Virus record (IMG/VR): IMGVR_UViG_3300005647_000079
Span: 1-20,827 of that record
Strand: one strand, 5' to 3'
DNA length: 20,827 nucleotides
Source: a virus
Shown piece by piece: positions 555-20,827 of the stretch. Numbering within the stretch: the first letter of the stretch is position 1; the number at the start of each line of letters is the position of its first letter. The notes below the pieces were generated by a model, which did not search any database, was not told where the DNA came from, and saw only the letters and a list, made by a program, of their open reading frames with translations. The position numbers and the translations under genes were made by a program.

Positions 555-956
555 TTACTTAGCGTAAATTATTTTATAATCCGAAAATGAATTTGTTTCA
601 CTTGTGCATCGTGCGCGAAGCATATCAGCATCAACTTCGAGTTCTTTTGCAGCAATAGTAACGGTTTCATATCGCTTGCCTTTGATTTCAACATAGTCAA
701 CAACTCGTTTTTTATTGCGGTTGTGATTGGCTCTTTGTGGTGGTCGTTTTTGTTTGAATCCTTTATCGGCTAATAATAATTGAGTCCACTTATCAATATA
801 GGTGATTGCATCTTTCTTATTTGAAAATTCTGAAAGCACCTCTATCGTACATTTTTGAGAGTGATCGAAATCTGAAACCACTTTCTGTATATCTTCTGTC
901 ATGGAGATATTTAAAATATCGCCTGAAAAAGAACGTACTATATAAACGCGAATCAT
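555..956 (-). CDS. Small protein with C-terminal IENR1/NUMOD-like DNA-binding module
   Basis: This 133-residue protein starts at the ATG at 956, eight bases after an AAGGTG Shine-Dalgarno site, and overlaps the stop of the upstream HNH gene by ATGA, so the two are translationally coupled. Residues 86-131 (DYVEIKGKRYETVTIAAKEL, then a helix with MLRARC, ending FSDYKIIYAK) resemble the short repeat found at the C-terminus of many phage homing endonucleases: a hydrophobic strand, an AAKEL helix, a basic recognition helix and a final aromatic strand. A basic linker rich in Arg, Asn and Lys (about 68-84) precedes it. No GIY-YIG, HNH or LAGLIDADG catalytic motif is visible in residues 1-65, so it may be only the DNA-binding remnant or accessory partner of a homing endonuclease. 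Family assignment is by eye. Confidence 0.55.
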   Translation of the reverse strand: MIRVYIVRSFSGDILNISMTEDIQKVVSDFDHSQKCTIEVLSEFSNKKDAITYIDKWTQLLLADKGFKQKRPPQRANHNRNKKRVVDYVEIKGKRYETVTIAAKELEVDADMLRARCTSETNSFSDYKIIYAK

Positions 957-1735
957 GATTGCACCTTGTTAGCGCCACGAATTAAATCGTGGGTGTGCTC
1001 TGTAAATATTTTATCGGCTCTAATCTTCTGTGTATATGTGATTCCAATGCCGTGTTTCTTTGCCAGTATTTTAATTACTCCATCATCTACATAAACTGCC
1101 TTTATACTAGCGATCTTTTCAGGAGTTTGATGTTTATCTTTCATCTCCATATTCTGTTTATGTGTGCCTTGAAAAATATGAAACGGTGAAACGCATTTTC
1201 TATGAAGTCCATTATTTTCACATTCTTCAATGTGGCATATCACGTTATCAGTTTTGATTGAGTCGGGGTAGAACGTTTCATATGAAAAACGAATTGCAGA
1301 CATCATCCTACCTGTGTAGGAAGTAGGTTCGAAACCTTTTGCGGTGTGACTGTTGCCATTGGAAGGTCTGATGGTTGGGTTCTCTAGCCCAGCATAAAGC
1401 GGATATGAATAATTTCTATTTTGAGTATATGCACCTTTCCATTGCCAACATTCTGTTTTTATATCACCTTCAGGGAATTTAATTTTATCTAAGAATCGTC
1501 TGATTCTCATGTTCGATACATTCTTTGAATTAATTATTTCAGGGAAATCTGGATGATAGACATCTGTTATCAGGTTTGCTGCCAGCGTTAAGTCTTTTGT
1601 TACTTTCAGGTGACACTGGTTATTGCGGATACTACCGATTGTGTGGTGATTAATACCAGTGATATTAGATATCTCTTTATTAGTTCCGCAAAATTCGTAT
1701 ATAAATTTTATGAGTTCAGGATTATTCTTCAGCAT
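953..1735 (-). CDS. HNH-endonuclease-like protein with flanking helix-turn-helix segments
   Basis: This 260-residue protein has the phage HNH layout: CWQWKG at 96-101, a SAIRFSYE helix near 146-153, then C167-H168, C172, C181 and H186 (CHIEEC...CVSPFHIFQGT) followed by a THKQNM helix. The four cysteines fit the zinc-bound core of the family in which the usual block reads C-H-x-C...C-V-N-P-x-H-L. The usual Asn of CVNP is Ser here (residue 183), so catalysis may be weakened. Residues 19-37 (NKEISNITGINHHTIGSIRN) look like an N-terminal helix-turn-helix, and 205-243 like the C-terminal one common in homing HNH enzymes. No convincing SD precedes the ATG. Probable role: DNA nicking or cleavage in homing, or packaging-linked nicking; unproven. 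Confidence 0.75.
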   Translation of the reverse strand: MLKNNPELIKFIYEFCGTNKEISNITGINHHTIGSIRNNQCHLKVTKDLTLAANLITDVYHPDFPEIINSKNVSNMRIRRFLDKIKFPEGDIKTECWQWKGAYTQNRNYSYPLYAGLENPTIRPSNGNSHTAKGFEPTSYTGRMMSAIRFSYETFYPDSIKTDNVICHIEECENNGLHRKCVSPFHIFQGTHKQNMEMKDKHQTPEKIASIKAVYVDDGVIKILAKKHGIGITYTQKIRADKIFTEHTHDLIRGANKVQS

Positions 1736-2806: not shown

Positions 2807-3131
2807 TTTCACCAGTGCATTCGTTTAAAAGTTTTATTTCGTTCGTATACTTTATAAACGCCCAACGTGATCGTCCATTGATTGGGTGGTAATAATTAGG
2901 TTTTATTTCTGGCCTGTTGCCAACAAAGGTGAACGTTCCATTCTCCACACTATAGTTTGCACAATCAGGAATTTCTTGGAAGTCGATAATCACAACGCTA
3001 TCGTTATATTTTAGAATTTCAATAGGTGGTGTCAAACCTGAAAGTAAAAACCACGAGCATATCATTACCACAATTGAATATCCGATGATCAATTTATCAG
3101 AATTGATTTTTTGGAACATCAAATGGACCAT
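2787..3131 (-). CDS. Small single-pass membrane protein, distant relative of the two upstream proteins
   Basis: This 114-residue protein has one predicted transmembrane segment at about 14-32 (LIIGYSIVVMICSWFLLSG), a short N-terminal basic region, and an 80-residue C-terminal domain expected outside the cytoplasm. The domain contains a Pro-Asp-Cys site (C57) and a second Cys (C105), in the same order and similar spacing as Asp-Cys69 and Cys141 of the two larger upstream neighbours, suggesting a shortened, diverged third copy that could form the same disulfide. The start ATG at 3131 overlaps the end of the upstream gene by 35 bp; a second in-frame ATG lies four codons later and cannot be excluded. 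Function unknown; context is the operon behind the holin-like gene. Confidence 0.65.
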   Translation of the reverse strand: MVHLMFQKINSDKLIIGYSIVVMICSWFLLSGLTPPIEILKYNDSVVIIDFQEIPDCANYSVENGTFTFVGNRPEIKPNYYHPINGRSRWAFIKYTNEIKLLNECTGEITMLEI

Positions 3132-3633
3132 ATATCGAAAATATTAAGTCACCAGATTTAATATGTTGAGTTCCAACTTCATCGTCATCTCGTTCAATTA
3201 AATAATCACCACATACGTGTTGTGAGATTACTCGAACCTCAGTCACTGTTTTACCTTGCAGTTCTGGTGTTTCGCCCCAATCCCATTGCCAGAATTTCAT
3301 ATCTGTTCTAAAGAATGATCGTGGGTCAGATGAAACTTTTGGCACTCGCACGAAATTGAAATCTGCAAGGTATAATCGGCTGTCGGCTGTTTTAACGTAT
3401 CCCACTGGACTGTTAAATATAAAGCCACAATCGCGTATTTTTATGCCTGATGCTGAGTAAGTTATTGATGTAGCTGTTTGTTCAACAACTTTAACTTTAA
3501 CTCTTATAATAGCAGGAAACTTACTAACCATATATACAGCTAGAAGCATAACCACGGTCACTGCAATAACCGCTTTCCACGAATTTTTATTAAAGCCAGC
3601 ACGTTTTGCAGCTCTTGTATGGACGTTTGACAT
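3097..3633 (-). CDS. Membrane-anchored protein, paralogue B of a two-cysteine family
   Basis: The 178-residue product begins MSNVHTRAAKRAGFNK, has a transmembrane segment at about 19-37 (WKAVIAVTVVMLLAVYMVS), and then an extracytoplasmic domain of about 140 residues. I chose the ATG at 3633 rather than an upstream TTG at 3669 because the first 16 residues then align without gaps to the neighbouring paralogue (MDNKNRSAANRAGFNK). With this start the conserved GIKIRDC places Cys69, and a later Cys141, at identical positions in both proteins. Other shared blocks are SP.G.V (75-80), WQWDW/WRWDW (115-119) and the terminal GDL.FS..GPF. Domain function is unknown. Location after a holin suggests a part in lysis, superinfection exclusion or envelope modification, but no known family is recognised. 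Confidence 0.75.
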   Translation of the reverse strand: MSNVHTRAAKRAGFNKNSWKAVIAVTVVMLLAVYMVSKFPAIIRVKVKVVEQTATSITYSASGIKIRDCGFIFNSPVGYVKTADSRLYLADFNFVRVPKVSSDPRSFFRTDMKFWQWDWGETPELQGKTVTEVRVISQHVCGDYLIERDDDEVGTQHIKSGDLIFSIYGPFDVPKNQF

Positions 3634-3640
3634 AATTTGA

Positions 3641-4168
3641 TTACTTTCGCTGGACTCTAAATGGACCAATCACAGAAAATCGTAAATCACCAGTAATTGA
3701 GTGCCCACCAATTTCATCATCGACAGCCACCACGGAATTTGTACCACACACATTTTGTGATAATAATAATACTTCGTATGCTAATTTATCTTTCATCTCT
3801 GGATTATTGCTCCAATCCCAACGCCATACACCAAAGTGTGTTCTAAAAGGTGATCTATCTCTTGAACGATTAACGGATATATCTGGATATCCAAAGTCTG
3901 TAATTTTTCTTATGCCGTATTCAGTTCTTACGAATCCAGTTGGACTGCTTGGAACATAGGCACAATCTCGAATTTTAATTCCAGACACAGCAAGAGAAAC
4001 TGATGTGTCAGTCAATTCAACTATTTCCGCTTTTTGCCAGATGATGATTGGCAATTTGCTCGAAAAATATGTTACTGCCCACAATAAACATAACCCTACG
4101 ATTATTGACTTCCATATATTTTTATTAAAACCAGCGCGGTTTGCTGCTGATCTATTCTTGTTATCCAC
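3641..4168 (-). CDS. Membrane-anchored protein, paralogue A of a two-cysteine family
   Basis: This 175-residue protein is a tandem paralogue of the next gene downstream. It starts at a GTG (4168), giving MDNKNRSAANRAGFNK, which aligns gap-free with paralogue B. A transmembrane segment spans about 20-37. The outer domain holds GIKIRDC (Cys69), SPTGFV, a tryptophan-rich VWRWDW block and Cys141, ending GDLRFSVIGPF. Two cysteines at matching positions in both copies suggest one disulfide in an oxidising compartment, hence a Gram-negative periplasm. The gene starts one base after the stop of the upstream 59-residue gene, so the group is one operon. No lipobox is present, so it is not a typical outer-membrane spanin; function unknown. 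Confidence 0.78.
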   Translation of the reverse strand: MDNKNRSAANRAGFNKNIWKSIIVGLCLLWAVTYFSSKLPIIIWQKAEIVELTDTSVSLAVSGIKIRDCAYVPSSPTGFVRTEYGIRKITDFGYPDISVNRSRDRSPFRTHFGVWRWDWSNNPEMKDKLAYEVLLLSQNVCGTNSVVAVDDEIGGHSITGDLRFSVIGPFRVQRK

Positions 4169-4169
4169 T

Positions 4170-4349
4170 TTAATGGAACAGGCCGAACGTATGAAGGATT
4201 GCTGAAATGCTAAAACTCACCACTGAACACAAAAAAATCATCTTCCACAAATGTTTATTGAAACCTGCTTTTTGCGCAGCCATTGCGTGCTCGTGAATAA
4301 TTTGTTCGAGACTTTTTTCATCATCAATCTGTTGTTGGTTATTGCTCAT
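4170..4349 (-). CDS. 59-residue single-pass membrane protein sharing the AGFNK N-terminal motif
   Basis: Start chosen at ATG 4349 because a GGAG Shine-Dalgarno lies six bases upstream; a longer reading from 4391 lacks such support. The start overlaps the end of the holin-like gene by 11 bp. The product has a polar, glutamine-rich and acidic N-terminus, then HAMAAQKAGFNKHLWKM, and ends with one transmembrane segment (about 36-56). The AA.KAGFNK..WK block directly before the membrane segment is the same as in the two larger downstream proteins, so this looks like a stand-alone version of their N-terminal anchor without the outer domain. Such anchor-only copies could act as antagonist or assembly partner; this is inference. 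Confidence 0.72.
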   Translation of the reverse strand: MSNNQQQIDDEKSLEQIIHEHAMAAQKAGFNKHLWKMIFLCSVVSFSISAILHTFGLFH

Positions 4350-4758
4350 TGTTTGCTCCAAAATCTTTAGGAGGTTGGTCTGGTTGAACACTCCAATCGT
4401 CTACCTCTTGTTTGTGTTGTGTTGGTTGTTGTTCTGGTGTTTTTGTCTCAGAAGTCTTTTTTCTTAGCATATCCATAAGTATGTCGAATAAAGTGGCCAT
4501 CCCGTTGACCCCTAAAAACGAGCCCATCCCACTGAGGCCCACAAGCACTGGATAGCTATCAATAAATTGGTGCGCTAGCAAAAAGAATACTGTTCCCGAA
4601 AACATACTGGATAAAAAATCATAAGCAATTTCGAGTTTGCTTACCTTGCGACCATCACCATTAGCATTATCGATCATTGATTTTAGGACTTTAATTAAGC
4701 TGCCACCAAAGACAACAAGGCCAAAACCTGCGTTAGCGAAAATGTATTCTAAAATCAT
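4339..4758 (-). CDS. Holin-like membrane protein (LydA-type phage holin)
   Basis: The 139-residue product has hydrophobic segments at about 5-24, 48-66 and 68-92, with the middle loop SMIDNANGDGRKVSKLEIAY and the stretch SGMGSFLGVNGMATLFDILM. This order (first helix, basic loop with RK.S, then two close helices with small-residue packing) fits LydA-type phage holins. A hydrophilic, Gln- and Pro-rich tail (98-139) is likely cytoplasmic. Holins open the inner membrane at the end of infection. An AAAGG Shine-Dalgarno precedes the ATG at 4758. It leads an operon of small membrane proteins, but no endolysin lies in this window. Family assignment is by hydropathy and pattern. Confidence 0.68.
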   Translation of the reverse strand: MILEYIFANAGFGLVVFGGSLIKVLKSMIDNANGDGRKVSKLEIAYDFLSSMFSGTVFFLLAHQFIDSYPVLVGLSGMGSFLGVNGMATLFDILMDMLRKKTSETKTPEQQPTQHKQEVDDWSVQPDQPPKDFGANNEQ

Positions 4759-4872
4759 GAATCAGCCTTTAATTAATTATGTATAGAGTATTTAGTCGCT
4801 AGGGTGCGCCAGAACAGGACACGATTAGAGGCTTCACTAATTGTAAAAAGAGGGGAAGTGGTGATTAAAACA

Positions 4873-4917
4873 GTTGGTGACTGGCCTACGGCCAGGAACT
4901 GGCGTTCCTGACCCAAC
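4873..4917 (-). terminator. Branched double hairpin, possible terminator of the upstream hypothetical operon
   Basis: Just after the stop of the minus-strand gene ending at 4921 there are two adjacent perfect hairpins, CTGGCC-TAC-GGCCAG (4881-4895) and CAGGAAC-TGGC-GTTCCTG (4893-4910, sharing three bases with the first), enclosed by an outer GTTGG/CCAAC pairing (4873-4877 with 4913-4917). Read on the minus strand the structure is followed by TGTTTTAATC, a weak T-tract. It is GC-rich against an AT-rich background. It may be an intrinsic terminator or a three-way-junction RNA element. Confidence 0.45.
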
Positions 4918-4920
4918 GAT

Positions 4921-5301
4921 TTAAGACTGTCTATAGGTTCGTGAGCGGACAGTGCAGATCGTGTCCACGGTCAGTCCGTCGATATCAGCATCCGTGTGGT
5001 CTTGCCAGTACCACATCACCTTTGGGTTGTATCTTAGGTGATCGACTGCTGGATACTTGTCTGTTATCACCGGCACATGTTCCACGGTCGCGCAATCTAT
5101 CCATGCTGATCTGTTCTTATCTCCACCATTGAAAATCACTCTGGACGCTGCCTTGTTGTTATATAGATGGCAGTCGGTCATTATCAGGCTTTCATCGATT
5201 GGGTTTGAGTAGTATCGTTCACCCGTAACGGTATTCGTGATTTCCCACCATTCTTTGTAGTCGCCATTTTGGAGATTAAATCGCACTGTAAACTTTTTCA
5301 T
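4921..5301 (-). CDS. Hypothetical protein, aromatic-rich, GC-richer gene
   Basis: The 126-residue product starts at ATG 5301 after a clear AGAGGATAATAAA ribosome site. It has no signal peptide or membrane segment. The sequence has a beta-rich appearance with many aromatic residues (YKEWWEITNT, VMWYWQDHTD), a NGGDKNRSAWIDC block and two further Cys residues. No known family is recognised. Together with the upstream gene it has a visibly higher GC content and different codon choice (many CC- and CG-ending codons) than the rest of the window, suggesting separate ancestry. A perfect 8-bp stem hairpin lies between it and the upstream gene. Confidence 0.6.
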   Translation of the reverse strand: MKKFTVRFNLQNGDYKEWWEITNTVTGERYYSNPIDESLIMTDCHLYNNKAASRVIFNGGDKNRSAWIDCATVEHVPVITDKYPAVDHLRYNPKVMWYWQDHTDADIDGLTVDTICTVRSRTYRQS

Positions 5302-6169: not shown

Positions 6170-6640
6170 GAGAAAGATTCTGATCCTTTTGAAAAATTAA
6201 TTCTGGTAATGGGCCGCATTTTTAAAATCACAAACTGCCCACCTCACTGCACAGATTTTCTAAAAAATTTCATGGAATTGTCTGAAAATTGACCATTTCA
6301 GTGGGTTTGAGAAGGTTGAAACTGATACTATTGATTAAATTCTGAGCAAAGTACCAACCGCATATGCCGTTTCTGGTGTGCTACCTTGAACCAGCCGTCG
6401 AAAAAGGCCACTATTTGTCTTATTTTTCAATGGCTTATAAACTTCTGCACATCAAATCTGCTTCTCTGTTTGCATTAATTAAATCATATAATTCATTAAA
6501 ACGGCTCTATAATGGGCCTAATATGATTGAATACTGCACAGATAACTGCTTCATTTGTGATCAATTGCTCAGATTTTGCTGAACCTATTTTGTAATATAA
6601 CGCATATTGCATTTAAGCATTAATTACTGGAGAATTGACC

Positions 6641-7876
6641 ATGAGTACCGATATTAATATTAAAGATCTTCGAAAAACCTATGATTCAGCCATAACCCAT
6701 AAAAAAGGCACGAAAAACCTATGGTGTCGGTTTAGCTCTAAGGGATTAAAGGTTGATTGTAGTACAAAGACGGACAATTGGGATGAAGCACAGGAATTTG
6801 TGCTGCTAAAACGTCAGGAGATTGCAGATCAACACGTTCATGGCAAAAAGAACATTGTTACCTTTGATGAAGCATGGCAATTATATGTGGATACGTTTGC
6901 AGCTAACTGGTCAGCGTCAAAATCCACAGAGAAAAACGATAGAAACATGTTTGACAGGATGACAGGTCAGATGGTGATTAGATCAACGATTCCGACCGTT
7001 AAAGAGCTGGCAGTTGACCCAACACTGGTTCCTACATATTGGACGCCAATGAGTGTTGATTGTTTATCGAAAGTGGATTCAGTTGTCTTACAAAACTTGC
7101 ATTCAACTCGGATTAAAGAGGGTGCATCACGTAGCCAGTCAAAAGCTGAAATTGATTTCATTAAAAGGCTAATTAAATGTATGCATCGATACAAAAAGAA
7201 GGTTCCAGCAATGGATACATTGGTTGTCACTATCAAAGCGGTCAAGAATAATCGTCGCAGGATGGTCACGGCTGCTGAAATTTTAGAAATTGTGTCATAC
7301 ATGAATGAAGATGATGCTGATTACATACTGGCGTTGGCTTTCTCAGGTAGTCGATCAATGGAAATGGCAAAAGCTAAGTGGTCTAGTGTTGAAATGGATG
7401 CCAACAACAATCTACTGTCAATTTGGTTGTATAACGAGAAAACTGATGAAATTTACTCAAAACCATTGGTTGATGAAAGTGGCAATCTATTGTTATTCGG
7501 TGAATTGCTGACAAAACGCTTTAAAAACCGTGAAAAACAGTTCGATTGGATATTTCCTATGCAGACAAAACCTGAAAAACATCGTAACCAGAGTACTGAT
7601 TTTTGGCACAAGGCGATATCCAACACGACAATTAATGACCCTGAAACAGTTGCATTAATTAAAAATAACGGTGAAAAGCTGGTTCCACATCACTTGAGGC
7701 ACTTTGCAGGCCAGCAGTTGGCTTCTCAGGGACTTTCACAGTACGTTATACAAAGGCATTTGAACCATGCCGATGGACGAACAGCCGCTATGTACATGGA
7801 TCAGGTGGAGAATCCAGTGGCAAAGCAGACAATGAGCAACATCGATAGTTTATTTAAAAATGAAGGTAAATCGTAA
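6641..7876 (+). CDS. int: Tyrosine recombinase, phage integrase
   Basis: The 411-residue product carries the tyrosine-recombinase active site in order: Arg238 in AFSGSRSMEMAKAKW, Lys267 in YNEKTDEIYSKPL, His350-x-x-Arg353 in PHHLRHFAGQQLASQG, His376 in LNHADGRTA and the nucleophile Tyr385 in AMYMDQ. An N-terminal region (about 70-190) fits the SAM-like core-binding domain, preceded by an arm-type domain. The enzyme integrates and excises the element by site-specific recombination. ATG 6641 was chosen over a TTG at 6635 because TGGAGAA lies at the proper distance upstream. The stop overlaps the start of the next gene (TAATG). Two features differ from the commonest consensus: SG.R rather than TG.R in box I, and NHAD in place of GHSS. 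Confidence 0.93.
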   Translation: MSTDINIKDLRKTYDSAITHKKGTKNLWCRFSSKGLKVDCSTKTDNWDEAQEFVLLKRQEIADQHVHGKKNIVTFDEAWQLYVDTFAANWSASKSTEKNDRNMFDRMTGQMVIRSTIPTVKELAVDPTLVPTYWTPMSVDCLSKVDSVVLQNLHSTRIKEGASRSQSKAEIDFIKRLIKCMHRYKKKVPAMDTLVVTIKAVKNNRRRMVTAAEILEIVSYMNEDDADYILALAFSGSRSMEMAKAKWSSVEMDANNNLLSIWLYNEKTDEIYSKPLVDESGNLLLFGELLTKRFKNREKQFDWIFPMQTKPEKHRNQSTDFWHKAISNTTINDPETVALIKNNGEKLVPHHLRHFAGQQLASQGLSQYVIQRHLNHADGRTAAMYMDQVENPVAKQTMSNIDSLFKNEGKS

Positions 7877-10169: not shown

Positions 10170-10622
10170 ATGCATAAATTACGTGGATATACTCCAATCG
10201 TGTTTGATAAGACACATGTAGATTATGACAAATTTTCATTTAACCAAAAACTCAGTGAAGGTTCTGATGAAGTGGTTGATGATGTATGGAACAAATTGAT
10301 TTCTGATCTTGATCATATTTCTAAGCAATGTAGTGAAGTGCAAAACGATCTTTTACAAAAAGAATATTTTGAATCACTGTTGCAACAGCGTGAAACACTG
10401 ATTGGAAAGATAAAGGCGTGTGAACGTGAATGGAATAAACGACGTAAAAAGTTAGAGCAAGCATTTAAAGATGCGTTTCCTAATGAAAAAGAAATGGTTA
10501 AAAAAGCATGGGTTGATTATATGGAGAATGGTGAGGTTGTCAGACGTTTAGTTAATAACCCTGCATATGAAAGACAGCGCAACAAAGATGATCCAGATAG
10601 CTCTTTCTTGGTGAGCAAATGA
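10170..10622 (+). CDS. Hypothetical coiled-coil protein upstream of the primase/helicase
   Basis: The 150-residue product has an AGAGGAATTATAAG ribosome site before ATG 10170. Residues 38-98 form long charged helices with heptad character (VWNKLISDLDHISKQCSEVQ, then LLQQRETLIGKIKACEREWN), followed by a basic RRKKLEQAFKDAF segment. The stop overlaps the start of the primase/helicase gene by four bases, so the two are made together. It may be a loader or accessory factor, but no family is recognised and no ATP-binding motif is present. Confidence 0.65.
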   Translation: MHKLRGYTPIVFDKTHVDYDKFSFNQKLSEGSDEVVDDVWNKLISDLDHISKQCSEVQNDLLQKEYFESLLQQRETLIGKIKACEREWNKRRKKLEQAFKDAFPNEKEMVKKAWVDYMENGEVVRRLVNNPAYERQRNKDDPDSSFLVSK

Positions 10623-13600
10623 GTGAACCTTTCGACCCGTATACTGATTCGTTTGAGTTTGCAACGTTTGTTAGTTACTGGGGTAATAATCCTAATTTTG
10701 TAAAGATGACGTGGAATGGACTCCAAAGTTATTTTCGTAATCCTAAACACACTGATATTGATGCGTTTGATAAAACCATTGAACAAATTTACGCTCGCAA
10801 AAAAGAAATTTCCAGAAAGTATAAACGCTATATATCTGGTGCTTCTTATTACACACTGACTGATAGAAAACTATTAGATAACTTAGGTGGAAACAAAACG
10901 TTCCGATGTAATCCTAATGTTGCAAGAATGAACATGTTGATTCTTGACTATGATCGTGAAAGCAACCCAGAGAAGTTCTTTAAAAAGTTCAGAGATTTAA
11001 AAATCAAATGTATTATCTATCCAAGTGTTGGAAATGGTTATACAACTTTCACTGAAAAACATGCTGATGCTTGGAACAAAGATTTTAATGCAGGAAAAAT
11101 ATCTACCAAGTTCGATAGACAATTATTAAACAGAACTATCTACAAATACAGAGTTGTTATTCCATTTGCTGAATCTATTGGTGTGGATGAATGGAATCAA
11201 AAGAAAGACCATGCAAAGATTATCTTTGGAGATATAGATACTTCGTGTTTAACTGATTCGCAATCTCAAGGTCTACCATTAACCTGTGATTATGACCCGT
11301 ATCCGTATAAGAAGCATCTTAGAATTATGGACGCTAAGGATGCATCGTTCTTAGATATAAAATCATGGCCTGTTGTCACTGAACTTAGAACTAACCAGAA
11401 GGGAAAGAACTACACTTCATCAGGTAAAGGTTTCCACAACACTAGAACCTTCTATCCAGACACAACACTTGAAGATGAAAATGAAAATCCATTTAGTGTT
11501 GATAGTATTGCCAATGGTGTTGACATGCAGATTAAAATTATGTGTCCTGCAAAAATACACCTTGAAGATGGAAATCCAAACAAGCGCAGACAAACGGCTT
11601 TCCTACATATAGATAGCTACGATCACACGTCTAATGCATATGATGCTGCAAACTATAACTGTCTAGTTAATACATGCGAGGCGCACACGTCAGTTCGAAT
11701 GACCATGCCAGCCTTATATGAAGAACGTTTATATGATATCGATTTTAATAAGTGCAAAAAATCAGCACTCAAAGACACTGATGGTTACGATACGGATGAT
11801 ATTTATTTTGGATTAACCTTCCCAGATGGAACCCTGCTTAGTGTTTTAACAGTCGAAGAAATGTCTGAAAGATTTAAAAAGATGAAGTTCTTCGATAAAA
11901 ATTATTATTACATTAAGCAATGTGTTGAAAAGGCATTGCACAAACAAAAATTAATCGATGCCAAAGAAGATGCAATCTTTGATGTTGAATATGATTCTGA
12001 ATTTGTTAGAAAACCACCAATCGTGCACAGTGTTAATAGATTGGATATCAAACAAAATCCAATGATCAGAAAGTTAAAGAACGCAGTCTTTAAAAATATG
12101 ATCAATGCTAAACAGTTTGTTCACACTGACAGAGTATTACTAACTGATGAAGAAGGTACTGGCAAATCATCTTTCGCGTTATACGTGGCCGGTAGAATGA
12201 AAGTCAATTCTGTGTTTGCTTGTGCGAGTTGGGTGCAAGCTCATGAACAATTCAAATCATTTAAAAAAACAGCAAAGGAATGTGATGTTGACGTTGATAT
12301 AGTCATGCATATATCAGAAGATCAAATGATCAGGGACAGATGCCCAAAATATAATCCCAAGTATTCAAAGGCAAAGCCGTTCGAGTCAGGCGAAATAGAT
12401 CGTGGACGTAAATTAGAAGCGATTAAAAAACATTTGTCTCATGATGAAGCCAATGAATTATTAAGAGAGTGTGAGGATGCGTACAAAAAACAAAGTGATG
12501 ATTTCAAAGAATTGAAAGCCAATAGTGACAGCATCATTGTTATTACTACACACGCAATGATTGCTGGCATTAATGCGCAGATAAGATCACTTGACCCACA
12601 ATCACCCACTGAATTAACTAAGAACAAACAAAAGGTCAAGATCACCTTTAAAGATAAGACCAATCCGTTTATTGACTTTCTTATTTGGATTGATGATGCC
12701 AAAAGAGATATGTTTGAAAATTATATGCCAGTGTCTGTTGCCAAAGAGAAACGAATTAAAGATTCATCACCACAATATGATACTTACAATGGAATGTTGT
12801 ATTACGAAGATCCAGAAACCGATCTTGAAGAAAATGACATTGTTTTCGAGAGATTTAATAATAAGCATTACTTCGAGCGCAGACAATCACAGGTCTATGG
12901 TGAGTTCTTAAAAGCCAATATGCTCATATTCACGACCACTGAGTTTATGTGCAGCGAATTAATTAAAAGAACATACCCAACAATAAAAGCACCCAAGCTG
13001 ATTGACGATGTAAGACTCTCTGCTGGGCGTTCTCATTTGATGGGCACTGACATGGTGAGTGCTGATAACGATGGAATTATACCCATTATAGTGGACAGAT
13101 TGAATGCATCCATACCTGATGTAAAAGATCAGTACACTTTAATCGGAAATGGGTTTGGTTCTACAGACAATCTATCCAATTCCAAAGGCCAAAATTCATA
13201 CATGGGAAAGAATTTAATTATCGAGGTTTCACAACCACATCCAAGTGTAGTGGCTCGATATCGATCACTTGAATTCAATGGTGTCATGAGCACAACGATG
13301 GTCAAGCTAGTGTTACTGTTGGATGATATGCATCAGGCCATTGGACGAAATGGTGGACATAGATACCGAGGAAATACACACCAGATTGTGTTAGTACCTA
13401 ATGGGAAAATGTTGGGTGATATAGTAGATTATTCGAGATATTATTTTAATTCTGTTGATAACATGGATGCGGATTCTATACCATCATTTGATACAGATCG
13501 ACAGGAAGATATGGGTCTGTTTAATGATGTTGTGGCCCAAGTCAAGAACGACATTTACAACAAATCGTTCTTAGATGATATTAAAAGTCATATTGAAAAG

Positions 13601-13807
13601 TCGGCTGATCATTATAAAAAAGATCAGTTTTTATATCGACTAGAGAAGTTTTTTAATGCAAGGATTGATGAATTAATGACTGATCTTGATCGAGTGGAAG
13701 TCAATTATAAAATTAAAAAGGAACGAACCAGAGCTGAAAAACGGATTAAAAAACGGATTAAAAACTGTCATGATATAACGCATTCGATAAGAAAAATGGT
13801 CACTTAA
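10619..13807 (+). CDS. Replication protein: AEP-like primase fused to an SF2-like helicase
   Basis: A 1062-residue protein. N-terminal part: MLILDYD (106-112) is the hhhDhD motif of archaeo-eukaryotic-type (AEP) primase/polymerase folds, followed by CIIYPSVGNGYTT (131-143), RVVIPFAES (178-186) and DIDTSCLTDSQSQGLP (205-220), the order seen in phage and plasmid AEP-like primases. A possible zinc site follows: Cys309-Pro...His314 and Cys348...Cys353. The C-terminal part has a Walker A variant DEEGTGKSS (510-518), a Walker B-like LIWIDDA (688-694) and QAIGRNGGHRYRG (906-918), a match to helicase motif VI. It would prime and unwind phage DNA. It ends in double stops TAA TAG. Walker A lacks the usual first Gly, and DDA replaces DEx. 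Confidence 0.8.
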   Translation: MSEPFDPYTDSFEFATFVSYWGNNPNFVKMTWNGLQSYFRNPKHTDIDAFDKTIEQIYARKKEISRKYKRYISGASYYTLTDRKLLDNLGGNKTFRCNPNVARMNMLILDYDRESNPEKFFKKFRDLKIKCIIYPSVGNGYTTFTEKHADAWNKDFNAGKISTKFDRQLLNRTIYKYRVVIPFAESIGVDEWNQKKDHAKIIFGDIDTSCLTDSQSQGLPLTCDYDPYPYKKHLRIMDAKDASFLDIKSWPVVTELRTNQKGKNYTSSGKGFHNTRTFYPDTTLEDENENPFSVDSIANGVDMQIKIMCPAKIHLEDGNPNKRRQTAFLHIDSYDHTSNAYDAANYNCLVNTCEAHTSVRMTMPALYEERLYDIDFNKCKKSALKDTDGYDTDDIYFGLTFPDGTLLSVLTVEEMSERFKKMKFFDKNYYYIKQCVEKALHKQKLIDAKEDAIFDVEYDSEFVRKPPIVHSVNRLDIKQNPMIRKLKNAVFKNMINAKQFVHTDRVLLTDEEGTGKSSFALYVAGRMKVNSVFACASWVQAHEQFKSFKKTAKECDVDVDIVMHISEDQMIRDRCPKYNPKYSKAKPFESGEIDRGRKLEAIKKHLSHDEANELLRECEDAYKKQSDDFKELKANSDSIIVITTHAMIAGINAQIRSLDPQSPTELTKNKQKVKITFKDKTNPFIDFLIWIDDAKRDMFENYMPVSVAKEKRIKDSSPQYDTYNGMLYYEDPETDLEENDIVFERFNNKHYFERRQSQVYGEFLKANMLIFTTTEFMCSELIKRTYPTIKAPKLIDDVRLSAGRSHLMGTDMVSADNDGIIPIIVDRLNASIPDVKDQYTLIGNGFGSTDNLSNSKGQNSYMGKNLIIEVSQPHPSVVARYRSLEFNGVMSTTMVKLVLLLDDMHQAIGRNGGHRYRGNTHQIVLVPNGKMLGDIVDYSRYYFNSVDNMDADSIPSFDTDRQEDMGLFNDVVAQVKNDIYNKSFLDDIKSHIEKSADHYKKDQFLYRLEKFFNARIDELMTDLDRVEVNYKIKKERTRAEKRIKKRIKNCHDITHSIRKMVT

Positions 13808-15676: not shown

Positions 15677-15745
15677 TTTCATCACCACGATGCGAGGCTG
15701 ATCCACCATTCAACGATCACACCATCAGATGTACAATCACACCAG

Positions 15746-15889
15746 ATGAGCGTACAGGAGCTTAAAGAGCAGCACAGAGAACATGAACTCCATCCGAAAT
15801 TTAATTACAGCACAAAAACAATCAACATTTTATATCGTGATTGGTTCTGTGGATCACTTCAACGTAATCAAATCCATAATTTAATATAA
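15746..15889 (+). CDS. Possible small gene (47 residues), weak support
   Basis: An open frame from ATG 15746 to TAA 15887-15889 encodes a polar protein starting MSVQELKEQHREHELHPKFN and containing ILYRDWF. Amino-acid composition is protein-like (charged helix, then mixed segment), but there is no SD and no overlap with other genes. Listed only as a candidate. Confidence 0.25.
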   Translation: MSVQELKEQHREHELHPKFNYSTKTINILYRDWFCGSLQRNQIHNLI

Positions 15890-15898
15890 TATCTGTAC

Positions 15899-15942
15899 TG
15901 TATGTGGAGACAAGCGCCAAGAAGGAAGTGTGGGCGCATACA
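15899..15942 (+). ncRNA. Foldable segment after a -10-like box
   Basis: TGTAT (15899-15903) pairs with ATACA (15938-15942), and GCGCC (15914-15918) with GGCGC (15933-15937), contiguous on the 3' side and separated by a 10-nt bulge on the 5' side. It begins nine bases after a TATAAT. Could be the 5' part of a small RNA; weak evidence. Confidence 0.25.
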
Positions 15943-16265
15943 TTAGGCTGGGCTTTCAGAGTCGCATGATTAATTATAACATAAAATCAAGCATCATAAT
16001 TAATTAACAGTTATGACATGATGGATTATATCACCACTGCCCACCTCTTAACCGACTTCACATAATCAATTATTAATTATTCTTCAATAGAATCAATCAC
16101 ATACGACATTATTATTGATTTTATCCATTAATTCTACCGATTGCCGGTTATTACAGATGATGGATTGATGACTGGTGGGATCGAATCGCGTGATAGAGTT
16201 ATCATTATTCGATGTGATTCAACAATTAAATCATAATACATTACAAAATGCAAGTACTATCGTAG

Positions 16266-16462
16266 GTATGATCTAGATTGTAGTTGTTTTTATACCACAT
16301 TAACTGGTATACATTGGGATGTAATCGACAATCGGATGGAGTTAACAAAATCAATTAAAATTGTAGACGGATATACATTGTGATCGAGTTAACAAATCAA
16401 GCATTTAGTTAATGATCAGAAATGTAGACTGGTTCCTTGCAATTCCATATGTATGATCTAGA
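16266..16462. repeat. Direct-repeat cluster in the pre-terminase region
   Basis: GTATGATCTAGA occurs exactly at 16266-16277 and 16451-16462. Between them, TATACATTG occurs at 16308-16316 and 16372-16380, and GAGTTAACAAA at 16339-16349 and 16386-16396, as if a 40-50 bp block had been duplicated with a deletion in the second copy. A related AGTTAACGAAAA lies at 16579-16590. Repeats of this kind can be iterons or regulator-binding sites. Confidence 0.55.
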
Positions 16463-16812
16463 AATTTTCAGAATTATCTTACCGTTTTGGCTAGGGGTTC
16501 ACAAAAAACATTTGAGAAATGCTGATTGGTTCTCATTTTTAGCGGACTTTCATCGCAAAAATTTAAAAAATGTGACCTAGTTAACGAAAATCGCGCCATC
16601 TCTGTAAACGAACCAACCAGTATCTCAATAACAATTTAATCATACTTTAATCGTACCAAATCACGCCACGCAACCGTAATACATTATCCAGTACTGTTTA
16701 ATAATACTTTTATACCGTAATTGGTTCGATACTAGACCACTGTACATCCATACAGTACCAAACCCGTCAATACATCTACTTACCATTGATCATATCTTTA
16801 TTAAATAAGGGT

Positions 16813-17385
16813 ATGAACCAATTAAAACACAAATCATCACCAATCATCGTCCATGCCCCTGTTGCACGAGCCAAACGGTACAAAACAAATCTATTCATCG
16901 AACATCTATCCACGATAGGCATCAGTGCTGAATTGATTCCTGTGCCGTTCTCTATGCATGTCAACGCCTATGTGAAAGAACACGGTTGTTCATACCATGA
17001 AGCACGATATCAGATGATCAACACCAGCCTGAACAAATTAAATGTTGATGTGATTATTGTGGATATCAAGTACATCAAGGAAATGATACATCGCAACCCG
17101 CAATTAATTAACGATAACACCATTCAAACAATGGCTGATGATTGGGAAGCATCGTTCAAGGTCACAGCTACTGAAGTTGATCATGCCAGAAATATTATCG
17201 AGAAACGCAAGCTATCACCTCAACGCAAGAGTGAACTACTCAAACCAATGAGAGAGCATCTGCACGAATTAATTACCACTGATGAACAAAAAGCATTTAA
17301 TGCAAAAACATTCAGAGACAGGTTAAACACATTAAACAAAATCCATGACCATGAAATGTTAATGGTGGAGTTAGTAGGCATATGA
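16813..17385 (+). CDS. Hypothetical protein, first gene of the packaging module
   Basis: The 190-residue reading starts at ATG 16813; AAGGG lies only two bases upstream, closer than usual, and a TTG at 16786 has no ribosome site, so the start is uncertain. The product is basic to neutral with an alpha/beta beginning (SPIIVHAPVARAKRYKTNLF, then VDVIIVDIKYIKEM) and a long charged helical C-terminus (IIEKRKLSPQRKSELLKPMR onward). The stop overlaps the TerS candidate start (ATGA), so it is co-expressed with the packaging genes. No recognised family; a DNA-recognition or capsid-completion role would fit its place. Confidence 0.65.
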   Translation: MNQLKHKSSPIIVHAPVARAKRYKTNLFIEHLSTIGISAELIPVPFSMHVNAYVKEHGCSYHEARYQMINTSLNKLNVDVIIVDIKYIKEMIHRNPQLINDNTIQTMADDWEASFKVTATEVDHARNIIEKRKLSPQRKSELLKPMREHLHELITTDEQKAFNAKTFRDRLNTLNKIHDHEMLMVELVGI

Positions 17386-17792
17386 GCAAAGATATTAAAA
17401 CAACCAAAAAGAAAGCCGCCAATTCTGGAGCACAACGCCAAGAAAAAGTCTTGCTGGATATCGTCGAGAAATCAGTTGCCCGAATGGAAGCCTACTCAGA
17501 GCTTGAGTCACCGCTAACGTTCCTATTAAAGCTCTATAACGATCCTAACACAGACCCAAAACTGGCTGAAAAAGCCGCCAATGATCTATTGCCATACATG
17601 CACAATCGAAAGGCCAAACGCATTGAATCTGAAGTGACAACCACAACCAACGTCAACGTTAAAGTCACCCATGAAAGAGCACTAGAGTCTCTGGATGAAT
17701 TACTGGATATGAAACCACTGGATGATCTATCGAAAGAAATCAATAAAAACAAGAATGAAGCCTTAGACGGTGAATTCATCGAGAAAGAATAA
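17382..17792 (+). CDS. Terminase small-subunit candidate
   Basis: The 136-residue product has an N-terminal basic segment, then SPLTFLLKLYNDPNTDPKLA (43-62) and KAANDLLPYMHNRKAK (64-79). The pattern SPL.FLL...NDP..D..L...AA...LPYMH.R is characteristic of a group of phage terminase small subunits encoded just before TerL. These proteins form rings that recognise the packaging start and stimulate the large subunit. The C-terminal half is acidic and variable (ALESLDELLDMKPLDDLSKE). TAATG overlap with TerL and ATGA with the previous gene indicate translational coupling. Family by motif and synteny. Confidence 0.75.
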   Translation: MSKDIKTTKKKAANSGAQRQEKVLLDIVEKSVARMEAYSELESPLTFLLKLYNDPNTDPKLAEKAANDLLPYMHNRKAKRIESEVTTTTNVNVKVTHERALESLDELLDMKPLDDLSKEINKNKNEALDGEFIEKE

Positions 17793-19285
17793 TGCAGAGA
17801 AAAGAACAATTTAATTCAGCACAGTCATACCTTGAAAGTCCGATTGACTTCGATATCCCTGATATTGAACCATTCCTTACTAAGATTAAAGAGTTTATTA
17901 ATTTTGATGAAGATATAGAAGCATCTGTTGCTGAACAATTAAAAGTACATACTGAAAGGCACAAGATATGGAAAGTCATTCCTGATGATATAAAACTTGA
18001 GCTTGGATATAACGTCCGCTTCATTGGCAGACGTAAACAGCAAATATTAAAACCTGATGAAAACCCTGTAGTGATCTACAGCGCAGGCAGGGGATTCGGG
18101 GCTGGTGGCCTTTCATTTAACTAACATTATCTGAAAGGCCACCAGCCATTAAATGGAAAAACATTTTGTTTAGCTCAATACGCTAAAGAATTCGCAGAAA
18201 CACATGCAGGATGCAAAATTAGCATCTGCGGACAAACCGCCTCAGACAATAGAAACACGATCATGCGCGGTAAGTCGGGAATTATTGCGCTATCACATCC
18301 AGCAAGAAAGCCTATCTATAACCCAAGTACTAAGACAGCCGTGTATGCAAATGGCTCGCAGATAACAACGTTCACTGGAGAACAACCCGATGGTATAGCA
18401 GGTTCAGAAGCACAGTTAATTCTAATTGATGAATTATTTTTGATGCCATACCAAAGAGAAGTCTATGACCAGTTGCAATTTACGCTTCGATTAGGTGGTG
18501 ATGATGAACAGCAAGTTGTAATTGCATCCACGCCACGTCCGAGTGAACTAGCAAAAGAACTGTTGCAAGATTCTGATGATGTCACTGTTGTCACTGGTAG
18601 TTCAGGTGAGAACACCGCATTAACCAAAGGCTACATGAAGCGATTGCAGAAACGTTATGGTAATACTCGTCTAGGTCGCCAAGAAATGAATGCAGAACTT
18701 CTGCTTGATAATCCTGACAGTCTGTTTGAAAGTGAATCCATTGAAAAGAACAGAGTGACAAAACAATTCTTTAAATCAATATTTCATGAAGTTGAAAGAA
18801 TTGTTATTGCAGTTGACCCATCGACCACCAATAACAAATCATCTGATCTATGTGGAATTTGTGTTGCAGCCAAAGTCGAAGATAGAGCATACGTTCTTGA
18901 AGATTTAAGTATTAAGGAATTGCCAGAACGATGGGCTGCTATCGTTGCAGATGCATACAACAGACATGGTGCATCAGCTTGCATCGCCGAGGTCAATCAA
19001 GGTGGAGACATGGTGGAGTTAGTGCTTAGACAACAAGACACCAACATGAACATTCAAAAGATACATGCACGAATTGGAAAGTACACACGAGCAGAACCAG
19101 TCTCAAATTTATACAGTCGTAATTTAATCTCACATGTGGGTGTGCATGAAAAACTCGAAGAAGAAATGGTCACATGGTCACCAAAATTAGGTCGGAACCA
19201 AAAGAGTCCTGACAGAATGGATGCATTAGTTTATGCAGTGAGCGCATTGTTAATCTCTAACCAGAAGAAAGCATGGGTTGCTTGA
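17792..19285 (+). CDS. terL: Terminase large subunit (DNA-packaging ATPase/nuclease), interrupted at the P-loop by a 57-nt in-frame insert
   Basis: One frame runs from ATG 17792 to TGA 19285 except for a TAA at 18122-18124. The N-terminal part ends IYSAGRGFG (Gly103); the downstream part resumes KTFCLAQYAKEF, so removing 19 codons (104-122) gives the P-loop AGRGFGKT and a 478-residue protein, a normal TerL length. Downstream landmarks are intact: GKSGIIALSHP, Walker B QLILIDELF (acidic pair near 18428-18433), ASTPRP coupling motif, and the nuclease acidic residues Asp (18815, IAVDPST), Glu (18989, ACIAEVN) and Asp (19220, SPDRMDALVYA). It pumps DNA into the prohead and cuts it. No reinitiation start after the TAA would include the P-loop Lys. 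A decaying pseudogene is possible, but no other lesion is seen. Confidence 0.9.
18098..18157 (+). other. Candidate ribosomal-bypass or removable element inside terL
   Basis: The 57 bases 18101-18157 lie between Gly103 (GGG, 18098-18100) and Lys (AAA, 18158). They contain a stop in frame and end with GGA (18155-18157), which could serve as a landing codon for the same glycyl-tRNA (anticodon UCC reads both GGG and GGA). The last base of the GGG codon is the first base of a perfect 16-bp hairpin. GGG is the only such Gly codon in the terL frame outside the insert. Phage T4 gene 60 has a 50-nt gap between matching GGA codons with a hairpin and a stop; this arrangement is analogous but of unrelated sequence. 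Splicing, excision or mere gene disruption are alternatives. Confidence 0.55.
18100..18147 (+). repeat. Perfect 16-bp hairpin with TAA stop in the loop
   Basis: GGCTGGTGGCCTTTCA (18100-18115) and its exact reverse complement (18132-18147) flank a 16-nt loop (TTTAACTAACATTATC) containing the in-frame TAA at 18122-18124. Ten of 16 stem positions are G or C, well above the gene's composition. No T-tract follows. A 16-bp perfect stem by chance in coding sequence is very unlikely. Confidence 0.95.
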
Positions 19286-19345: not shown

Positions 19346-20827
19346 ATGGCTTACTCCCAACATAAATCAGGCATTCTATTACCTGACAGTTTTAAATCCA
19401 GTTCAAATGAAACGGCATTCAGCAGACAATACTCTGAATTTATTCTGTCTAACGATTCAGAGCACATTCATTCCCGTTCATATCGAAAATTAGCAACAGA
19501 GGCTTTTGAGAAAAATGCTGTTGCATCATCTTGCATTGATTTGGTTGCATCGAGCATTGGTGATCTTCACTGGATAATTAAAGACCGGCGTACTGGAGAA
19601 CGTATCGAGGATTCAGACCTAGAAATGTTGTTACAACGTCCGTGTGTAAACATGTCTAAAAGTGAGTTTTTCTATACTGCAACTTTATATCGCCTTATAT
19701 CTGGAAACATATTCATCAGAAAGATCGAATTAAACAATGGCAAAATTAAAGAATTAGAATTATTGAATCCTGCAATGATTGATATTGTCGAGAATGGAAA
19801 TCGACTACCAGAACTGTATCGTTACACACCATCAAACAATGGCACTAACACAAGACAAATAGAATTCCCTGTTGATCAAATCAGCGGAGATTCTGATGTA
19901 TTACATATCAAAAATGCTAGTGCAATGGATTGTCATTGGGGTACTAGTCCGTTATCACGTTGTTCAAGCGAAATTGCATTATTAAATGCGGGTCAAACTC
20001 ACAATACAAATCTGTTAAAGAATGGGGCGCGACCTTCAGCAATATGGAGTTTTAAAAACGAAATTGATAAAGATCAGCAAGACGAAATGCGAGACACAAT
20101 TAATAGTCGCTATTCAGGCCCACATAATTCAGGCCAGAACATTCTATCGAGTGAAGTAGATGTAAAGCCACTGTCTGTTAATGCCAGAGAGATGGATTAC
20201 TTGGAAACCAAAAAAGAGTTGACCAAAATCATCTGTGCAACATTAGGTGTTCCAAGTCAACTAATCTCGAATTCTGAGGCGAGCACGTTCAGCAACATCG
20301 AAGAATTAAAATTACATTTCTATGAATCGACTGTTATGAATGCAGCATCAACATTGGCTACCGAATTAAATTACTGGCTTGCACCAAGATTTGACCCTAA
20401 CTTTGAAATCTGCATTGATGAAGATCAGATTCTTGCACTACAACCACGAAGGGATCAACTAGCAGAACGGTATTCACTTTCTGAAGTTCTAACGACTAAT
20501 GAAAAACGAGACCGGTTGGGATTGCCACCTATTGAGGAAGTTGAAGAAGAAGTTGAAACGGTAGAAGAAGATGCTGTTGAACCAGTCGTTCCTACAGTAG
20601 AAGAAGATGATGCAGGTGATGATGATTCAAAGTCGGCAGTTAATGACCTAATTGCAGATGCAATTGAATCAGAAGCTGAATTCGTTACGATCAATGGTGT
20701 TGAGTATGACATTGTTGTTGTTGACAATGACAAAGAAGTTGAAGAAGTTGAAGAAGTTGAAGAAGTTGAAGAAGTTGAAGAAGTTGAAGAAGTTGAAGAA
20801 GTTGAAGAAGTTGAAGAAGTTGAAGAA
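19346..20827 (+). CDS. HK97-family portal protein, 3' end outside window
   Basis: The first 494 residues are visible. HK97-type portal landmarks are present: LISGNIFIRK (117-126), HWGTSPLS (197-204), LLKNGARPSAIW (223-234), then LGVPSQLI (300-307) with STFSNIEELKLHFYES (313-328), and LTTNEKRDRLGLPP (382-395). Portals form the 12-subunit ring through which DNA enters and leaves the capsid and on which terminase docks. After residue 396, where many family members end, there is an acidic extension with a small segment (SAVNDLIADAIESEAEFVTI, then GVEYDIVVVD) and a run of VEE repeats to the window edge. The ATG follows AGG at 7-base spacing. It lies 60 bp after terL, the usual order. Confidence 0.93.
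   Translation, partial: MAYSQHKSGILLPDSFKSSSNETAFSRQYSEFILSNDSEHIHSRSYRKLATEAFEKNAVASSCIDLVASSIGDLHWIIKDRRTGERIEDSDLEMLLQRPCVNMSKSEFFYTATLYRLISGNIFIRKIELNNGKIKELELLNPAMIDIVENGNRLPELYRYTPSNNGTNTRQIEFPVDQISGDSDVLHIKNASAMDCHWGTSPLSRCSSEIALLNAGQTHNTNLLKNGARPSAIWSFKNEIDKDQQDEMRDTINSRYSGPHNSGQNILSSEVDVKPLSVNAREMDYLETKKELTKIICATLGVPSQLISNSEASTFSNIEELKLHFYESTVMNAASTLATELNYWLAPRFDPNFEICIDEDQILALQPRRDQLAERYSLSEVLTTNEKRDRLGLPPIEEVEEEVETVEEDAVEPVVPTVEEDDAGDDDSKSAVNDLIADAIESEAEFVTINGVEYDIVVVDNDKEVEEVEEVEEVEEVEEVEEVEEVEEVEEVEE
20735..20827 (+). repeat. 9-nt tandem repeat encoding (EVE)n in the portal tail
   Basis: GAAGTTGAA is repeated without error ten times and into an eleventh copy at the window edge (93 bases). 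It keeps the frame and encodes alternating Glu-Val-Glu. Exact nucleotide identity means recent expansion or slippage, and the window ending here may reflect an assembly break at the repeat. Confidence 0.9.

Follow-up and report, generated by a model that had tools for sequence, protein, structure and literature searches.

The interrupted terminase gene

How might a phage make its terminase large subunit (TerL) when the gene for it carries a stop codon within the Walker A motif? This question is raised by the stretch of viral DNA analyzed here (the window), which is the entire IMG/VR record IMGVR_UViG_3300005647_000079 at its full length of 20,827 bases. The record is most likely a fragment of a temperate phage (integrase at positions 6635-7876). 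Translated in a single frame, the whole TerL region (17792-19285, plus strand) reads ...IYSAGRGFG, then AGGLSFN, a TAA stop codon at 18122-18124, HYLKGHQPLN, and finally GKTFCLAQYA.... The first part of the gene (codons 1-103; 17792-18100) ends with GRGFG, and its frame stays open until the TAA; the next stop of the same frame is at 19283-19285. Among approximately 25 predicted genes of the window, the stop codons are TAA (13) or TGA (12), and none is TAG. The second part of terL (18155-19285), which runs from GKTF to the stop, carries the remainder of the ATPase domain and the nuclease domain, as indicated by PF03237, PF17289, and alignments, and the region after the TAA matches the Pfam families Terminase_6N (E 1.6e-14) and Terminase_6C (E 1.3e-15). 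Upstream is the gene for the terminase small subunit (TerS; 17382-17792, plus strand; phrog_641, E 3.4e-10), and downstream is a portal protein gene (19346-20827, plus strand; PF04860, E 4.6e-61) that is still open at the contig end. At 20730-20827 the portal gene enters a repeat coding for VEEVEEVEE, where the contig ends, and this repeat is the probable cause of the assembly break.

The original prediction, made from sequence alone, held that TerL is split in its P-loop by an in-frame insert with a TAA, that deleting 19 codons gives GRGFGKT, and that TerS and portal genes flank the locus. All of these claims held on translation, alignment, and family matching. The insert is exactly 57 nt (19 codons) and falls inside the Walker A motif, between GRGFG and KT. 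The prediction had also proposed a check against homologues, and alignment with six relatives (34-38% identity) shows a precise gap of exactly 19 residues, with an uninterrupted GRG[FS]GK[TS] in six of six. A second intact terL had been named among the findings that could refute the prediction. No second terminase was found within the 20.8-kb record, although this record is a fragment and another terL elsewhere cannot be excluded.

Uninterrupted motifs are also the rule among the TerL loci drawn from IMG/VR, where the P-loop pattern was matched in 74 of 80. Two of the six others (L093 and L094) carry a P-loop that is intact but deviates slightly in sequence, one (L110) has GRGWGKN, and two (L082 and L104) begin downstream of the motif. 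The last (L065) has lost one base in its P-loop (2488-2504), probably by assembly or sequencing error. The closest relatives lacking an insert are only about 40% identical, and a near-identical empty site was not among the sequences compared.

The insert is a long hairpin

The original prediction missed the hairpin nature of the insert. On the plus strand, a left arm (18100-18115) and a right arm (18132-18147) form 16 perfect pairs around a 16-nt loop that holds the TAA, which is the eighth codon past the proposed take-off codon. An unpaired 7-nt linker, ATTAAAT (18148-18154), leads from the hairpin to the proposed landing codon. The predicted folding energy is -32.3 kcal/mol for the hairpin alone and -33.7 kcal/mol for the whole gap segment, and the 121 nt around the insert fold 6.4 standard deviations below dinucleotide shuffles. 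This hairpin is by a wide margin the best inverted repeat of the window. In 1.08 Mb of viral and related DNA, only about nine sites have a perfect stem of at least 14 bp with a loop of at most 20 nt.

Database searches did not assign the element to a known class. No Rfam family was matched in the window, searches for tRNA genes and of plasmid DNA and solved structures gave nothing, and blastn of this insert, or of the second insert described below, against phages returned chance matches only.

A second phage with the same design

A pattern scan of IMG/VR looked for AGRGF/Y-G, a gap of 41-71 nt, and then G-K-T, with landing codons limited to GGN. When the lysine codon was AAA, every TerL match proved to be an intact motif followed by a later chance GKT. 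When the lysine codon was AAG, there were 37 matches, and one of these is a truly interrupted TerL, located in IMGVR_UViG_3300033153_012176 (5054 bases; hereafter L132). The remaining IMG/VR matches had an intact P-loop or were unrelated DNA, and a clade-specific scan recovered L132 again and no further case.

The first part of the L132 TerL resembles its counterpart in the window and has the same AGRGFG end. It closes with ...FIGRPKQQLPDGEWDYLLALAGRGFG, followed by GGPLFAH and a TAA that is again codon 8, and the second part begins GKTFMGSH.... The insert has the same junction (GGG/GGA) and an 18-bp hairpin of different sequence (-31.5 kcal/mol). The design seen in the window, with its exact placement, hairpin, and matched glycine codons, is present in a second phage. 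The L132 gap, however, is 55 nt rather than 57, and so is out of frame, and a TAA in the second frame lies directly 5′ of the landing GGA.

The L132 TerL is the closest found to the window TerL (42% identity over 376 residues; 298 bits, versus 281 for the next). Its portal is 32% identical to that of the window, and its TerS is similar as well. These similarities make it likely that the packaging modules of the two phages are akin. In a TerL tree, the placement of the two sequences is unresolved, and a sister grouping is not rejected (p-AU 0.573). Upstream of the L132 TerS gene, at 4860-4930 on the minus strand, are tandem direct repeats, (CAGTCAAGATG)n.

This second case bears on two other explanations. 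One is that the insert is a sequencing or assembly artefact. In its favor, the data are metagenome assemblies, and the one-base error noted above in L065 affects the same motif. However, two contigs from different records carry different hairpins at the same codon junction, and an artefact is all but excluded. The other explanation is recent inactivation, in which the insertion of a hairpin destroyed terL in a phage genome that is defective or represents a minority. The stop does truncate the frame, and the record, which includes an integrase, is only part of a genome. Against this, a diverged second phage has an insert of this kind at an identical codon junction, both frames are otherwise intact and conserved, and the insert sits exactly where skipping it restores the protein. 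We consider inactivation unlikely. Because both parts of TerL are open with conserved motifs at 42% identity, the product is probably made, although this is an inference. The original prediction argued against decay of the gene and for a mechanism by which the insert is bypassed or removed, and this claim is strongly supported by L132 and by the intact, diverged coding sequence on both sides of the insert.

Matched glycine codons and upstream structure

The proposed take-off codon is GGG (18098-18100, plus strand), which is the rarest glycine codon of the window phage (13 of 230), and the proposed landing codon is GGA (18155-18157, plus strand), after which decoding would resume at AAA, the Walker A lysine codon. 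By established decoding rules, GGG and GGA can both be read by one tRNA-Gly(UCC). Skipping from GGG to GGA yields AGRGFGKTF. When all pairs of matched codons that rejoin the frame were compared, only GGG to GGA restored the family P-loop in both phages. Between the two codons there are 54 nt in the window and 52 nt in L132, and inclusion of the landing codon gives the 57 and 55 nt stated above. The hairpin begins within GGG in each case, at the third base in the window and at the second base in L132. The codon that follows take-off is a sense codon in both phages (GCT in the window, GGC in L132).

Just upstream of the take-off codon, a candidate 5′ stem-loop (18064-18092, plus strand) has CCCTGT and GCAGGG as its outer strands, with an alternative inner hairpin at 18066-18081. 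The segment 18055-18097 folds at -14.3 kcal/mol, and outside the insert no 43-nt windows of TerL are more stable than those at this place. Relative to a null of synonymous codons the stem-loop gives p 0.0025 (rank 2 of 226), a test that was chosen post hoc. The corresponding structure of L132 is moderate, ranking 37 of 1229 in stability within the gene. A candidate 3′ stem-loop in the window is no better than chance (p 0.43).

The KKYK peptide is absent from both phages, and no Shine-Dalgarno-like motif precedes the landing codon in either the window linker or the L132 stretch ending CTTTTAA. Approximately 20 residues upstream of take-off, the two insert-bearing TerLs have FIGRxKQQ in common, at a position where the six aligned relatives mostly have a FWARPxQL-like sequence. 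It is conceivable that this peptide acts in the exit tunnel, but such a role is speculation for which there are no data.

Translational bypassing as the proposed mechanism

We propose that the insert is a coding gap skipped by ribosomes through programmed translational bypassing like that of T4 gene 60. This reading is likely, with a probability of roughly 0.76, and no RNA, ribosome-profiling, or protein data exist to support it. A ribosome would translate TerL up to GGG, where it would be stalled by the hairpin beginning at the codon's third base. The peptidyl-tRNA-Gly would then release the mRNA, the ribosome would cross the 54-nt gap, and the tRNA would re-pair with GGA so that decoding resumes at the Walker A lysine and gives an uninterrupted AGRGFGKT. 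Take-off, sliding, and landing are all inferred, as are the efficiency of the process, any regulatory role, and the production of a joined protein from an unspliced mRNA. Ribosomes on the T4 gap have 99% per-nucleotide processivity and can slide up to approximately 56 nt (PMC11194080). A possible objection is that a stem of 16-18 bp is far stronger than that of T4 and could simply block ribosomes.

Other translational routes were considered and rejected. Readthrough of the TAA would place 19 extra residues inside the Walker A motif of the window protein, and it cannot work at all in L132, whose two parts lie in different frames. Because the L132 gap is out of frame and a TAA lies directly before GGA, the second frame can be entered only at GGA or later, which rules out both readthrough and frameshifting inside the gap as routes to TerL. 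Re-initiation to give two polypeptides cannot rescue TerL, since the first in-frame ATG, GTG, or TTG after the stop is at 18263, beyond the Walker A lysine. The ATG at 18153 is out of frame and meets a stop after six codons. A jump that leaves from the AAC preceding the stop and lands on an AAT is feasible in the window, but there is no equivalent in L132.

The insert could instead be removed from the RNA, with the hairpin being a tiny intron that is cut from the mRNA by an unknown splicing or cleavage-ligation system encoded by host or phage. Loss of 57 nt in the window or 55 nt in L132 would restore TerL equally well, and introns in phage terL genes exist, as in Shewanella phage KASIA. However, the insert is much too small for a group I or group II intron, and these are rejected as candidates at 57 nt and without an Rfam match. 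Also, apart from the glycine codons, the insert ends of the two phages have nothing in common, and no bulge-helix-bulge pairing between exon and insert is present in the predicted fold. An intein is likewise rejected, as there are only 19 codons, one of them a stop, and no open splicing domain. RNA-level removal is in our view unlikely.

Comparison with known systems

The likeness of the two inserts to the T4 gene 60 gap is considerable. In each case the coding sequence of a phage gene is broken between two glycine codons (GGA/GGA in T4, GGG/GGA here) by about 50 nt that do not code, a stop codon lies inside the gap, a stem-loop begins at the take-off codon, and a stable stem-loop is located upstream of take-off (in the window; moderate in L132). 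There are also clear differences. By the same definition the T4 gap is 50 nt, versus 57 and 55 nt here, and the gene is terL, with the Walker A motif as the site. The stop is next to the take-off codon in T4 but is the eighth codon here, and the short take-off hairpin of T4 is replaced by one of 16-18 bp and approximately -32 kcal/mol. Moreover, the take-off and landing codons are identical in T4 but not here, the KKYK peptide and the Shine-Dalgarno-like motif are both missing, and the window insert leaves the frame unchanged. We do not claim strict membership in the T4 gene 60 class because the adjacent stop, KKYK, and the Shine-Dalgarno-like motif were sought and not met. Nevertheless, it is probable that the element works in a similar manner, although expression data are lacking.

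Bypassing has also been proposed for the terminase gene of Streptomyces phage Hau3, a candidate described as dependent on a UUA codon and a preceding KGWG (PMC5009743). Unlike the present case, Hau3 is not discussed as skipping an inactivating insert, and there is no TTA among the first-frame codons around the GGG take-off. The byp elements of Magnusiomyces capitatus mitochondria, which occupy 81 positions in one mitochondrial genome (PMC5009743), are similar in being short inserts that ribosomes skip and that would otherwise leave genes nonfunctional. They differ from the elements described here, which occur once per record, in phages, and with a long perfect hairpin. The introns and inteins of phage terL genes are likewise insertions in a conserved region of terL, as in the HNH-bearing case of KASIA (MZ568826.1; L163), whose terL is annotated in three joined pieces that overlap an HNH gene and which serves as an ordinary intron-bearing contrast. 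The window insert, in contrast, is far too short to self-splice, has no endonuclease or splicing domain, and contains a stop. The literature searched, with most subscription journals outside its scope, yielded no description of hairpin inserts in the P-loops of terminases.

For decades, T4 gene 60 was the sole well-established natural bypass in bacteria and phages, and counterparts were long presumed to exist (PMC5009743). The same review knew of no natural occurrence of in-frame stop-hopping, of which the window would be a case if bypassing is true. If so, an essential gene would offer two small, testable examples in the two phages. Because their hairpins differ, and only one of the two gaps preserves the frame, the general requirements of take-off and landing could be told apart from the particulars of T4. 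Gene finders may reject genes of this kind as defective, and searching for conserved motifs that a hairpin interrupts could be a way to find more.

Origin of the inserts

When the 16 stem pairs of the two inserts are compared in order, seven are the same, two are changed on one side, and seven are changed on both sides. RNAalifold applied to a plain MAFFT alignment of the two inserts likewise gives 16 pairs, seven of them changed on both sides with pairing kept. Beyond the hairpin design, the similarity of the insert sequences is not significant (p 0.16), and thus common descent with compensatory change cannot be distinguished from two separate insertions. The hairpin is the feature common to both inserts under either origin.

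The original prediction also entertained a tiny mobile element at this site, and this idea has not been shown. No further copies of the hairpin arms are present in the window record or in IMG/VR or GTDB contigs. Because the packaging genes look related, inheritance is just as plausible as mobility.

A related possibility is a palindromic DNA element that is mobile or can be excised, so that some genome copies carry it, others have lost it, and TerL is made only from the empty copies. The palindrome is flanked by a GG direct repeat, and slipped-strand deletion of such palindromes is known. However, other arm copies are lacking in IMG/VR and GTDB contigs, the inserts of the two phages are unlike in both sequence and length, and precise excision would have a direct repeat of only 2-3 bp to act on. 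DNA-level excision therefore seems very unlikely, and translational bypassing is likely the better fit than either this explanation or splicing.

A bolder reading of the bypassing proposal can be stated as one joint claim. Bypass elements in the Walker A loops of phage terminases would form a family that goes back to an ancestor shared by the window phage and L132 and has persisted since then, its hairpin maintained by compensatory change. Take-off from a sense codon would be driven by the long hairpin rather than by a stop and an arrest peptide, and the element would possibly set the timing or amount of the packaging motor. Taken as a whole, this claim is one that we would lean slightly against at present.

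Other features of the window

Several other regions of the window merit brief mention. Upstream of the packaging genes, approximately 1.1 kb of AT-rich sequence (15680-16780) without a plausible gene or an Rfam match lies between a small ORF and the ORF at 16786-17385. A 1062-aa ORF (10619-13807) has a GTGKSS motif and is unmatched in Pfam, PHROGs, and the phage collection. An HNH endonuclease-like ORF (953-1735, minus strand; phrog_1872) lies 16 kb from terL; bypassing in T4 is linked to the HNH gene mobA. Finally, three adjacent small ORFs (3097-4391, minus strand) have RAGFNKN/H.WK-type starts followed by a hydrophobic stretch and probably represent a tandem family of membrane proteins, which is adjoined by a holin-like ORF (4339-4758).
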